A stretch of DNA of 64,000 bases from Pseudophaeobacter sp. EL27 (GTDB lineage Bacteria > Pseudomonadota > Alphaproteobacteria > Rhodobacterales > Rhodobacteraceae). The position numbers were made by a program, and so were the translations under genes. The DNA lies in NCBI RefSeq assembly GCF_900313025.1, contig NZ_OMPQ01000009.1, forward strand, positions 388,072 through 452,071. Reading direction: 5' to 3'. The notes beneath the pieces were generated by a model. That model made no database searches. It saw only the letters and a program-made list of their open reading frames with translations, and was not told the origin of the DNA. This document shows positions 16,022-58,297 of the stretch, piece by piece (position 1 is the first letter of the stretch; every line of letters begins with the position of its first letter).

Positions 16022-17340
16022 TGAACCGCGCCGGTTTTTCCGGATACTGTTGAGTTCGTATTTCAAGCTGCAATTTTGTCTGATTTCAAGGCTTGTTCAT
16101 ACTGCTCCTCTGTTTCGATTGGCGTGATGTAGCCAAGAGGTTCTAGCAGGCGCTCCTTGTTGAACCAATCGACCCATTGAAGGGATTCCCATTCGACCTG
16201 ATCTTTGGATTTCCAAGGTCCAAGGCGTTTGATGACCTCCGTTTTGAACAGGCCGATGATCGTCTCGGCCAGCGTGTTGTCATAGCAGTCCCCCACACTG
16301 CCGACGGGCGGTTCCAAACCGGCGTCAGCGAGGCGTTCAGTTTATTTGATCGACACATTTTGGCTGCCGCGATCGGAATGATGGAAGAGCTTCTTAGCTG
16401 GCCTGCGCGCATGGATCGCCTGTTCGAGAGCATCCAGAACAAATTGCGTGTCCTGTGTTGTTGATGCCTTCCAACCGACGATCCGGTTGGCAAAGGTATC
16501 AATGACGAACGCGACATCGACGAACCCACGCCAGGTCGAGACGAACGTGAAGCCTGACACCCAAAGCTCGTTTGGCATTGAAGCCCTGAACTCGCGATTT
16601 ACCTTGTCCAGCGGGCATTGATCCGCAGGCTGACCACAGGTCGTCTTGATCTTCTTGCCGCGCCTGGCGCCTTGAATGCCGAGTTGCCGCATCAAACGCT
16701 TAACCATGTAACGAGCGATATCAATCTTCTCGCGTTTCATTGCATGCCACAGCTTTCTTGCGCCGTAGACAGATCGGTTTTTCGTCCAGACGTTCTTCAT
16801 CTCCTTGCGCAGATACGCATCGCGCTTAGCACGCTCAGAAGCCCGGTCAGGATTACGTTCAATGGCCAAGCGTTCATAGAAAGTCGAAGGGGCGATTTGC
16901 AGAACGCAGCAGATCGGCTCGACCCCATGCTCCCCTCGAAAGTCTTTGATGAAGGCAATCATTTGCGAAATGGGCGGTCGAGCTCCGCCTGTGCAAAATA
17001 AGCAGACGCCGTTTTTTAGGATCTCATTGGCCTGACGCAACTGCGGGTTCTCGCGCTCAAGTTCCTTGAAGCGATCTCGCGCAGCCGTTGTCACGCCATC
17101 GCGTTTGCCGGTACCCATCTCATCCTGCTTGACCCAGATGCGCAAGCTGTCCCTGCTGCACCCAACTTTCTCAGAGATCGACAATATTGCCGCCGATCTG
17201 CCGGCGTATTCTCTCTCGTGATCCAATACCATCCGCACCGATCGGGCGCGCAGTTCCTCTGGATAGCATGTTCCGTTCTTCGTCTTTCCCATGACCCAGT
17301 ATCCTTACTTCTGGGTCTCCGGAAAACAAGAGGCAGTTCA
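16022..17340 (-). mobile_element. IS3-family insertion sequence
   Basis: A 1319-bp element. The left end TGAACCGCGCCGGTTTTTCC and the right end (read inward on the minus strand) TGAACTGCCTCTTGTTTTCC form imperfect inverted repeats beginning TGAAC. Flanks (CAAG left, ATGG right) show no target duplication, so the element may sit at a rearrangement junction. Its right end abuts the truncated IS5-type fragment at 17341. Confidence 0.8.
16063..17292 (-). pseudogene. IS3-family transposase (OrfAB) with one nonsense codon
   Basis: One frame spans OrfA (helix-turn-helix, GCSRDSLRIWVKQ; zipper, ELERENPQLRQANEILK) and OrfB (MIAFIKDFRGEHGVEPIC; DDE signatures FVSTWRGFVDVAFVID and HHSDRGSQ). A TAA at 16342-16344 interrupts SIK-stop-TERLADAG, in the same frame as the rest (VGDCYDNTLAETIIG, containing the last catalytic Glu). 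Normally OrfB is reached by frameshifting; here a run of six A joins the frames directly. The single stop probably inactivates it, because the catalytic Glu lies after it. Confidence 0.82.
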
Positions 17341-55505: not shown

Positions 55506-56141
55506 TTACTGTTTCACTACGTCGACAATATTGTAACCGGCAGTAAAGCCCTTGAGTGACATCTTCATCTCAACCAGCTGATCTGGCGCAGGCGCAGGTC
55601 GCAGCGACAGAGTGGCTTCGCCGCCGGCCTTAAAGGTATCAATGTCTGCCTGTGTCAAACCAATCTGAGCGACGCAGCCAAGAGGGTTGCAAAAGGAATA
55701 GTTGTAGCGTTTGCCGGGGGCGCCATCGACCGAGATGGTCAAGGCAGCGGGCAGCAGCGTTTCCAGCGGCACAATAATGGTGGCACCGGCAACAGCCTGT
55801 CCACCGGGTTGATCAATCCGAAACAGCGAAACCTCGGCCATTGGGTTACCATTAGGATCCGTCAGAATTTGCAGCAACGAGCAGGGATCGGTTTCGGTGT
55901 CGGTTTTTATGCAGGCCAGATCCCAATCGCCATGGGTCTCTTTGGCGTAGCGATCACCCAGCTGTGGGGTGCCAGCATCGACGGGCTGGCCGAGATCCAA
56001 CATCTGATCGGCTGTTGATTCGCTGGCTTCGGCCACCGGTTCGGAGGTTTCGGTAGCAGCTGTGCCGCTTTCCTGGGCTGACAAAGCGCTTGTCACCGCC
56101 ATCAGCGCGGCCAGGGTCATCGGCGTAAGGGACTTGATCAT
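55506..56141 (-). CDS. Invasion-associated locus B (IalB) family protein
   Basis: A 211-residue secreted protein. The signal peptide ends near TSALSAQ, followed by an acidic Glu/Thr-rich segment (~25-60). The IalB domain follows: HGDWDLACIKTDTETDPCSL, LLQILTDPNGNPMAEVSLFR, AGATIIVPLETLLPAALTIS and FCNPLGCVAQIGLTQADID. The Cys pairs (C..C) are those conserved in the family. Named for Bartonella, but common in free-living alphaproteobacteria, where its envelope role is unclear. Confidence 0.87.
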   Translation of the reverse strand: MIKSLTPMTLAALMAVTSALSAQESGTAATETSEPVAEASESTADQMLDLGQPVDAGTPQLGDRYAKETHGDWDLACIKTDTETDPCSLLQILTDPNGNPMAEVSLFRIDQPGGQAVAGATIIVPLETLLPAALTISVDGAPGKRYNYSFCNPLGCVAQIGLTQADIDTFKAGGEATLSLRPAPAPDQLVEMKMSLKGFTAGYNIVDVVKQ

Positions 56142-56284
56142 GAATGCCTCATTATTCTCAGGTCGTTTGCAAAGGCTTTACCATGTTGAAGCAGGAGTGT
56201 CAGGTCTCAATCCCGCAGCCGCTGAAGAATAGGCAAGGAATTGACTGCAAGTTGAATAACAAGTGAAACGTTTGGAACCAAAGC

Positions 56285-56352
56285 AAAAAAGGAAGCTCTC
56301 CGGCTTCCTTTTTTGTTTCGTTCTCCCCGTCGGACTGGCCGACTTAGTTATT
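56285..56352 (-). ncRNA. Putative small RNA 1
   Basis: On the minus strand, TTGACC (56382-56387), a 17-bp spacer and TAACGT (56359-56364) form a good sigma-70-type promoter. About 68 nt downstream ends in terminator stem GGAAGC/GCTTCC (56291-56296 and 56303-56308) plus a T6 run. Between them lies a small stem GTCGG/CCGAC followed by GGGGAGAACG. No ORF fits. CCTCCT lies between -10 and the expected start, so it may be just outside the RNA. Promoter, compact size and terminator support an sRNA; its identity is unknown. Confidence 0.5.
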
Positions 56353-56537
56353 AGGAGGACGTTACGAAAGCCCTGTGCCTGGGTCAACATGCAATAGTAA
56401 AAAAATGTATCACTCTGCTGCTTTACCCGGATTTCTGGCTTTGTTTGCCCTGGAATCGTTTCGATTTTTGACTTTCACCCTACCAATGCTGTGCGGGGAT
56501 GTGAAAATGCGGAAAAAATAGGCAGAGATGTTAAGCC

Positions 56538-56624
56538 AAAAAAAGGGCCGTGCCTGCGGCACGGCCAGTCTGACAGGGAGGAAATGCCCGTCGCGATCTC
56601 GATTAGAGAGGACGGGCATGACAT
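56538..56624 (-). ncRNA. Putative small RNA 2 with exposed anti-Shine-Dalgarno linker
   Basis: On the minus strand, TTGAAA (56653-56658), a 16-bp spacer and TATATG (56631-56636) place a start near 56624. Stem 1 pairs ATGCCCGTC with GACGGGCAT (56584-56592 and 56611-56619). A single-stranded linker TTCCTCCCTGTC (56572-56583) follows. Then a perfect 9-bp terminator stem GGCCGTGCC/GGCACGGCC with T7 ends the RNA. Two hairpins with a CCTCCC linker are the layout of alphaproteobacterial stress sRNAs of the CcsR/CuckooS kind. The promoter resembles RpoH-type elements. About 87 nt, with no ORF. Identity is inference. Confidence 0.7.
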
Positions 56625-56752
56625 TGATCGCATATAAAAGTTAATATTCTGTTTTCAAGGGACAGGGCTTGCCAGCTGCGCCATCGACGCGATTCCTGGC
56701 GGTGGTTTCTACTGAGCTTTTGAGGGCATCTAATGGCAGGCAAAGGAAGACC

Positions 56753-58297
56753 ATGACGGACAAGATTTTTATTGGTGGTGGCGGTGAAGGTTACGGCGAA
56801 CCGCAGGAGATGAGCTTCAAATATGCCAATCGCCACGGGTTGATAGCCGGGGCCACGGGAACGGGGAAGACAGTAACCCTGCAGATCCTGGCCGAAAGCT
56901 TTTCCCAGGCTGGGGTTCCGGTGATCCTGGCCGATGTCAAAGGTGATCTTTCGGGGTTGGCTAAGCCCGGAACGCCTTCCCATAAGTTGCATGATGCCTT
57001 TACTGGACGGGCAGAGACAATCGGCTTTGACTCGTATCACTATCACAGCTGCCCGGTCACGTTTTGGGACTTGTTCGGCCAGCAGGGCCACCCGGTCCGT
57101 ACTACCGTCGCAGAGATGGGGCCTTTATTGCTGGCACAATTGCTGGAGTTGAGCGAGGCCCAGGAAGGGATCCTGAACATCGCCTTTCGACTTGCGGATG
57201 AACAGGCCTTGCCCCTGCTGGACCTCAAAGACCTGCAGGCGTTGCTGGTCTGGATCGGTGAAAATAGGGGCGCGCTGTCACTGCGCTACGGAAATGTCTC
57301 TCCGGCCTCAGTAGGGGCGATCCAGCGCCGCCTTTTAGTGTTGGAAAACCAAGGCGGAGCTGATCTCTTTGGCGAGCCGGCCCTGGCGCTTGAGGATCTG
57401 ATGCGTCAGGACCGCGAAGGGCGGGGCATGATCAATATTCTGGCCTCCGATAAGCTGATGGCAGCGCCCAAGCTCTATGCAACCTTTCTGCTCTGGCTGT
57501 TGAGCGAGCTATTTGAAGAACTGCCCGAAGTGGGCGATCCGGAAAAACCCCGATTGGTGTTCTTTTTTGATGAGGCGCATCTCTTGTTTGAAGATGCCCC
57601 CAAGGCGTTGGTCGACAAGGTGGAACAGGTGGCGCGGCTGATCCGCTCAAAAGGGGTTGGCATCTATTTCATTACCCAAAACCCTGGTGACGTACCGGAG
57701 GATATTCTGGGCCAGCTGGGCAATCGCATCCAGCATGCGCTGCGCGCCTTTACCGCACGCGATCGCAAGAACCTGAAGCTGGCGGCGGAGACCTACCGCG
57801 AAAACCCGCGCTTTTCGACCGAGGATGCCATTCGAGAGGTCGGGGTTGGCGAAGCGGTGACTTCGATGCTGCAAAAGAAAGGCGTGCCGGGCATTGTCGA
57901 GCGCACCTTAATCCGGCCACCCAGCAGCCAGTTGGGGCCGCTGAACAAAGCGGAACGCGCCGAAATGCTCCGGTCATCTGATATGGCAGGGAAATACGAC
58001 AAACCCATTGATCGCCACTCCGCCTATGAGATCTTGCTGGCGCGCACCAGTAAGGCGGCGGAGGAAGCGGAGGCTGCCGAGACCAAGGCGGAAGAGGCAC
58101 CGGAGCCCATGGCACGGGAATTCAATGCCGCGCGGCGTTTCTCCGGCTCCCGCATTCCGCGCTCATCATCGCGCAGGCATAGGCCCAAGGACACTTTTGC
58201 CTCTGCCATGTCGGAAGCTGTGATCAAAGAATTGAAAGGCACCACGGGTCGGCGTCTGGTGCGTGGTATCCTGGGCGGTTTGTTCAAAGGGCGTTAA
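56753..58297 (+). CDS. HerA-like/DUF853 ATPase (YjgR type)
   Basis: A 514-residue P-loop ATPase. ATG 56753 ([20 protein letters not shown]) has GGAAG upstream; the longer frame to 56669 crosses the sRNA promoter. Walker A is [11 protein letters not shown], Walker [13 protein letters not shown], and a sensor motif is [23 protein letters not shown]853/YjgR proteins belong to the HerA-FtsK superfamily; their role is not established. The C-terminal ~70 residues are Ala/Glu-rich and then basic ([17 protein letters not shown]). It stands alone, with a terminator-like structure after it. Confidence 0.85.

Follow-up and report, generated by a model that had tools for sequence, protein, structure and literature searches.

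A conserved tandem small-RNA locus of Rhodobacteraceae: an alphaR8-like RNA and a predicted sponge of its seed

Introduction

In the 64,000-nt stretch of Pseudophaeobacter sp. EL27 DNA analyzed here (the window), the spacer that separates ialB from a herA-like ATPase gene raises the question of whether two short minus-strand units at 56270-56660 are small RNA genes and, if so, what they do together. The original prediction regarded them as tandem small RNA candidates and a possible regulatory pair. Our analysis supported the interpretation as tandem genes and, at the level of probably, the pair: the core of the first unit (U1) is the complement of the seed of the second (U2), a link absent from the earlier proposal that gives the pair a likely function. 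The locus, a tandem of a small RNA and its predicted sponge, is real and conserved, with both genes maintained across Rhodobacteraceae, and it exceeds the earlier proposal in interest. The features are collected in Table 1.

Table 1. Features of the ialB-herA spacer and its neighbors (window coordinates; the 5′ end of U1 was inferred from its -10 box)
Feature	Position	Strand	Basis or remark
ialB neighbor	55506..56141	-	PF06776, E 8.5e-36
U1, putative sponge RNA (approximately 65-70 nt)	56284..56352	-	conserved block, promoter, terminator, fold
U1 intrinsic terminator	56284..56315	-	folding, relatives
U1 anti-seed	56323..56341	-	complementary to 56562-56580
U1 core hairpin GUCGG-CCAGU-CCGAC	56329..56343	-	(nearly) invariant columns; loop unpaired in folds
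CCTCCT	56353..56358	-	between -10 box and first conserved base; not conserved
U1 -10 box TAACGT, 17 nt from -35 box	56359..56364	-	relatives
U1 -35 box TTGACC	56382..56387	-	conserved in relatives
U2, alphaR8/SorX/SorY-like sRNA	56536..56620 (ends approximate)	-	sub-cut-off Rfam matches, family alignment
U2 intrinsic terminator stem	56546..56566	-	folding, RNAalifold, relatives
U2 seed region paired by U1	56562..56580	-	complementarity
UUUCCUCCCU anti-Shine-Dalgarno 10-mer, alphaR8 type	56575..56584	-	exact sequence match
U2 first hairpin	56584..56619	-	folding; sequence variable among relatives, fold kept
TTAAC...TGCGAT conserved block upstream of U2	56627..56650	-	putative promoter and/or regulator site
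HerA_C (DUF853) ATPase neighbor	56756..58297	+	PF05872, E 2.3e-220

Results

Two small RNA genes with their own terminators

The predicted units folded more stably than their shuffled versions (U1, -30.8 kcal/mol, z -3.7; U2, -38 kcal/mol, z -4.4), and terminator-like hairpins were present at both 3′ ends in the window, in agreement with the claim that each ends in an intrinsic terminator. The description of both as free of ORFs held insofar as no conserved ORF was seen and the ATG within U2 is missing from a close relative (L261), but mechanical ORFs of 69-70 aa span both units. The Rfam search that had been suggested gave a divided answer: at gathering scores nothing matched at 56270-56660, and at the E-value level no match covered U1, whereas U2 had sub-cut-off matches to three families. 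Elsewhere in the window (16888-17004, minus strand), the same database returned the ALIL pseudoknot RF01497 at 104.3 bits, a structure that serves IS3-type insertion sequences as a frameshift signal.

In U1, a AAUAACUAA-like lead precedes the hairpin GUCGG-CCAGU-CCGAC, after which come GGGGAG and a terminator; the almost invariant core is GUCGGCCAGUCCGACGGGGAG. In 142 of 143 U1-U2 pairs, the 65 nt preceding the core contain TTGAC (84 of 1430 control 65-mers), and at 17-nt spacing from it 102 of these 142 rows carry TAGCGT (59) or TAACGT (43), suggesting a sigma-70-like promoter of its own. A terminator follows the core in 142/143 pairs, compared with 3/143 shuffled sequences and 8/143 random windows from the same loci, and its stem is kept through 75 distinct inner arms. 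These terminators were counted by script, as MAFFT had misaligned them and thereby left our covariance models (R1 and R2) with poor structures. The promoter boxes, the short lead, and the pairing segment are conserved, in contrast to the variable bases ahead of the lead and the variable terminator sequence. CCTCCT, to which the original prediction drew attention at the start of U1, did not withstand comparison: it occurs in 2 of the 142 rows having the TTGAC box, among 106 different hexamers, and a position this variable is not conserved and probably not transcribed.

U2 consists, as had been proposed, of two hairpins with a largely single-stranded UUUCCUCCCU linker between them, as seen both by folding and by the family mean probability of being unpaired (0.69-0.91 across UUCCUCCCU). 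The 45 nt 5′ of the seed fold below -8 kcal/mol in 142/143 pairs (mean z -3.05 against mononucleotide shuffles), and this first-hairpin region differs in sequence in nearly every one of the 143 rows while retaining a stable fold. By raw script count, the U2 terminator is present in 139/143 relatives, with 47 distinct arms and persisting stems. The expectation of compensatory changes was borne out in part: in the RNAalifold analysis, 4 of the 8 base pairs in the U2 terminator showed changes on both sides, compared with none of the 5 pairs in the U1 core hairpin, which hardly varies, so that covariation gives no verdict for or against that hairpin.

An alphaR8/SorX/SorY-like sibling

The exact, mostly single-stranded UUUCCUCCCU 10-mer is consistent with the earlier view of U2 as an alphaproteobacterial anti-Shine-Dalgarno-type sRNA; in many relatives, it is replaced by CUUCCUCCCU. 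Membership in the CcsR/cuckoo type was rejected. Those RNAs carry the CCUCCUCCC motif in hairpin loops, which U2 lacks, and a Pfam scan of four neighboring proteins revealed no DUF1127. The proposed RpoH-like promoter likewise found little echo in relatives, CTTGAA occurring in just 3/143 upstream regions; conserved instead is a TTAAC box (123/143). This box reads CAAAGTTAACC, part of a palindrome, in 21/143.

The best E-value-level match of U2 was to SorX (RF02784; 35.9 bits, E 1.1e-6, cut-off 46.6), followed by suhB/mmgR (alphaR8/MmgR, RF00519; 34.6 bits, cut-off 41) and SorY (RF02651; 25.7 bits, cut-off 111), all below the gathering score; the SorY locus differs too. Among 16 further U2 loci, 14 matched SorX at E ≤ 0.01, the best at 44.8 bits (L013) and none reaching 46.6, and four matched RF00519 at the same threshold (33.4-36.3 bits). 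U2 is therefore best called an alphaR8/SorX/SorY-like sibling and no formal member of those Rfam families.

Distribution and synteny in the family

A BLAST search of the spacer against 394 family genomes yielded two separate conserved blocks, corresponding to the U2 core and the U1 core, in the recurring order IalB - U1 - U2 - HerA; at three of the loci (L032, L054, and L066), a branched-chain permease gene adjoins instead of HerA. By regular expression, 60 of 70 sources (the window and 69 loci) contain both cores as a same-strand tandem in which U1 follows U2 at a distance of 116-240 nt; the remaining 10 contain just one of the cores; these sources were picked by similarity, so the figures are no census. 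The U1 core pattern occurs in 251/388 family genomes (4 hits for the reversed control pattern), with a second match, probably by chance, in some genomes among the matches listed. A form with one extra loop base was found in 29/388 genomes (1 control hit); two of its loci, L173 and L174, look coding by eye.

The exact U1 23-mer occurs in at least 119 stretches of the named genome collection. Among the 80 listed, the carriers are nearly all what we take to be Rhodobacteraceae/Rhodobacterales, and a few are labeled to class or phylum only, or as Maritalea. These 80 loci were chosen on U1 alone, and 67 of them have the seed motif CCTCCCT within 450 nt upstream of U1; CCTCCCT-N2-6-GAC is present in 54/80, compared with 27/1600 control windows from the same loci. 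The other 13 comprise two with a variant seed, one that is cut off, and 10 in which no seed was found within 700 nt upstream of U1 (660 nt in L212). Where there is room on both sides, IalB and HerA both start within 900 nt in 53/54 named loci.

Departures from the tandem are informative. In one genome (G239), 19 kb separate U1, which stands with ialB, from U2, which stands with herA, and another (G311, L177) contains two U1 cores in tandem, 27 nt apart, as a natural two-site version. The separation, the U1 cores without an adjacent U2, and the doubled core are evidence that U1 may act in trans. Searching 289 class genomes with R1 brought up no convincing U1 beyond the family: 12 genomes had a hit at E ≤ 0.001, five of them inside the family, and five of the six outside matches examined consist of a terminator-like hairpin only. 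At L153, from another alphaproteobacterial family, the terminator holds the 15-nt U1 hairpin including the loop, probably by chance.

Complementarity of U1 to U2 and to its siblings

The U1 core and the U2 seed form 18 of 19 pairs, G-U counted, a match equaled by only 2 of 200,000 mononucleotide shuffles of the U1 core. On both strands of the window, no other site reached 17 or more pairs with the U1 core, save U1's own antisense. Across 60 loci, the predicted duplex ranges from -31.7 to -49.1 kcal/mol (mean z -4.15); it is weak in L024 (z -2.2) and weakest in L055 (z -0.9, 16/100 shuffles as good). An A:C mismatch lies inside the duplex in Pseudophaeobacter sp. EL27 and most other genomes. 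Duplex strength between GC-rich RNAs is no proof of regulation. U1 shows two features of a CrfA-type sponge: extended complementarity to the core of a sibling, as judged by duplex, cofold, and pairing counts, and its own promoter and terminator, as judged in silico.

In Rhodobacter sphaeroides, SorX and SorY have been studied as stress sRNAs and act on transporter mRNAs. The EL27 genome has further relatives of U2, namely L106 (SorX 95 bits, above the cut-off) and L111 (SorX 50.4 bits, above; SorY 52.5 bits, below); L111 was called SorY-like because, as at L104, a LysR-like gene and a purL-like gene flank it. The net cofold gain with U1 was -17.1 kcal/mol for U2, -20.7 for the SorX-like RNA, and -14.1 for the SorY-like RNA, whereas 40 shuffled partners of each gave means of -7.6, -8.8, and -7.4 and best values of -14.3, -18.4, and -13.5, respectively; the SorY-like gain is barely beyond its best shuffle.

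A second genome allowed the same comparison. In G051, SorY and SorX matches lie at 1,632,645 and 2,598,221, in agreement with the positions 1,632,642 and 2,598,224 given for R. sphaeroides 2.4.1 in the main text of PMC6238624, and we therefore took G051 as that strain. Its U1/U2 pair (L134) lies, by eye, between ialB and a catalase-like gene, with U1 near chromosome position 1,426,575 and U2 near 1,426,700 on the minus strand, and its U1 is predicted to bind U2, SorY, and SorX with similar strength (duplex, -41.9, -43.4, and -42.4; net, -15.1, -15.7, and -15.2). The catalase-like gene occupies the place that herA has elsewhere, and a HerA match was not found in the G051 genome; the U2 seed has diverged to CUCCCUGAACUGGACUGG.

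Covariation between the two RNAs is only suggestive. The U1 loop form CCAAGUC accompanies U2 GACUUG in 11/18 rows, compared with 1/124 without that loop form (Fisher 4.6e-11, with one row of another type dropped and 13 unclassified U2 counted as not-UUG). On a HerA tree covering 127 of the 143 rows, this association shrinks to 4 and 6 changes, mostly in one clade, which we read as about two independent co-changes. Six CCAAGUC rows have GACUGG and one has GACUCG, and L234 shows the reverse exception; an independent-pairs test had too few pairs for significance to be reachable, and the modeled energy gain from the co-change is negligible. With so few changes on the tree, covariation is weak once relatedness is counted, was rejected as proof, and carries no weight in our argument.

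Discussion

The genes, their conservation and synteny, and the complementarity with its in silico strength were computed here, and they suggest that U1 is probably a trans-acting RNA sponge (anti-sRNA) of alphaR8-type siblings. In this mechanism, U1 would be transcribed from its own sigma-70-like promoter and would display a small hairpin with the loop CCAGU and, 3′ of it, GGGGAG, while U2 would offer its UUUCCUCCCU seed, an anti-Shine-Dalgarno signature as in the SisA-D siblings of Caulobacter. The CCAGU loop and GGGGAG would pair with this seed and the flanking GACUGGCC, and the same U1 segment would pair with the SorX-like and SorY-like RNAs in the same cell through their CUCCCUGUUGGACU seed. 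Pairing would mask the seed, would probably open the foot of the U2 terminator, and would presumably lead to loss of one or both RNAs, whereupon the target mRNAs would be released. Transcription, the use of Hfq, the direction of the effect, and target release are the steps that we infer.

It is also conceivable, though unlikely, that U1 serves as a private antagonist of U2 alone and that its pairing with SorX and SorY is incidental. The tandem arrangement at most loci examined would fit such a role, as would the smallest of the three cofold gains, that of the SorY-like RNA, and the slightly stronger value for cognate than for permuted pairs (-36.57 and -36.21; 0/10,000 permutations, by a statistic that ignores relatedness). 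Against it, U1 is retained where U2 is missing or 19 kb off, the U1 of G051 is predicted to bind all three RNAs about equally, and the U1 base facing the U2 mismatch suits the G of SorX and SorY. The position of U1 upstream of ialB on the same strand at most loci could, in turn, indicate a cis-acting leader or attenuator of ialB that controls read-through with U2 as the effector, and RNAalifold indeed pairs the core GGGG with the 3′ arm of the terminator. That pairing, however, derives from an alignment with misaligned terminators, and in many rows it is either disrupted or G-U; a terminator found in 142/143 pairs with many different arms is what would be expected of a stand-alone RNA; we consider a leader very unlikely.

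Two further readings have little left to recommend them. The core might be a DNA operator rather than an RNA, given its inverted repeat (GTCGG-N5-CCGAC) just downstream of a strong promoter, which is highly improbable with a loop and GGGGAG tail nearly as conserved as the arms, a terminator after the core in 142/143, and one strong U1-model site in each of the six genomes searched. Scarcely more credible is the view that U1 itself regulates mRNAs and matches U2 only because an inverted duplication left this complementarity behind: complementarity alone does not prove binding in cells, and the mRNA partners of U1 were indistinguishable from chance in a three-genome scan allowing up to two mismatches (213 real and 179 control matches, so that we claim no mRNA targets for U1), but the conserved part of U1 coincides family-wide with the complementary segment, and an unused complement should have drifted.

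Returning to the sponge, we tentatively propose, at somewhat less than even confidence, that one old Rhodobacteraceae locus holds the genes for an alphaR8-type sRNA and for a sponge of all alphaR8-type siblings in the cell (U2, SorX, and SorY), forming a self-contained module that sets the threshold of regulons for oxidative stress and transport. If this is true, then, together with CrfA of Caulobacter, sponging of alphaR8 siblings would have arisen more than once or would be ancestral in Alphaproteobacteria, and U1 would be a missing off-switch for the whole sibling set in marine roseobacters and Rhodobacter-type bacteria. The idea is directly testable, since the pair is present in G051, where the positions of SorX and SorY fit R. 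sphaeroides 2.4.1.

Within the main texts of the open-licence literature searched (including PMC8307010, PMC3413700, PMC3688512, PMC6238624, PMC7866481, PMC5107571, PMC4809877, and PMC10253847), the U1/U2 pair was not found reported. In the scope of those papers, the U1 RNA, the family-wide tandem arrangement, and the link to SorX and SorY appear to be new; the sponge mechanism itself is already known from one recent case, CrfA. With respect to U2, the two-hairpin layout and the CCUCCCUGU..GACU seed are shared with SorX (RF02784) and SorY (RF02651), but U2 scores below both cut-offs and sits at ialB/herA, whereas SorX is placed at the 3′ UTR of an OmpR-like gene in the main text of PMC6238624 and SorY in a LysR/purL spacer. 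With MmgR/alphaR8 (suhB, RF00519), U2 shares the UUUCCUCCCU 10-mer, the upstream hairpin, and the terminator; it differs in its score (34.6 against 41 bits) and in having IalB and HerA_C as neighbors in place of the FGase gene to which, according to the main text of PMC12559287, alphaR8/MmgR is linked in most species. CcsR1-4 and the cuckoo RNAs are, like U2, alphaproteobacterial and carry a C-rich anti-Shine-Dalgarno-type motif, but neither CCUCCUCCC nor the association with a DUF1127 gene (main text of PMC10253847) is seen in U2.

For U1, the closest parallels are sponges. Vibrio QrrX, named in the main text of PMC12559287, resembles U1 as a sponge against sibling sRNAs (Qrr), in an unrelated sRNA family and organism. 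C. crescentus CrfA is described there as a sponge of four alphaR8 siblings, SisA-D, that share UUUCCUCCCU, a 10-mer defined in the same text (Vogt et al. 2025, PMC12559287). Because U2 has this exact 10-mer, U1 most likely works like CrfA, by analogy with that account. As far as that text describes CrfA, each of the two RNAs has its own small RNA gene and contains a G/A-rich segment that complements the UUUCCUCCCU core of the siblings, and in both systems several siblings per genome lie at separate loci. The role of U1 is here a prediction from its sequence; unlike CrfA as described there, U1 stands in tandem with one of its predicted targets, and its match covers the core and its surroundings, GACUGG among them, over about 19 nt.
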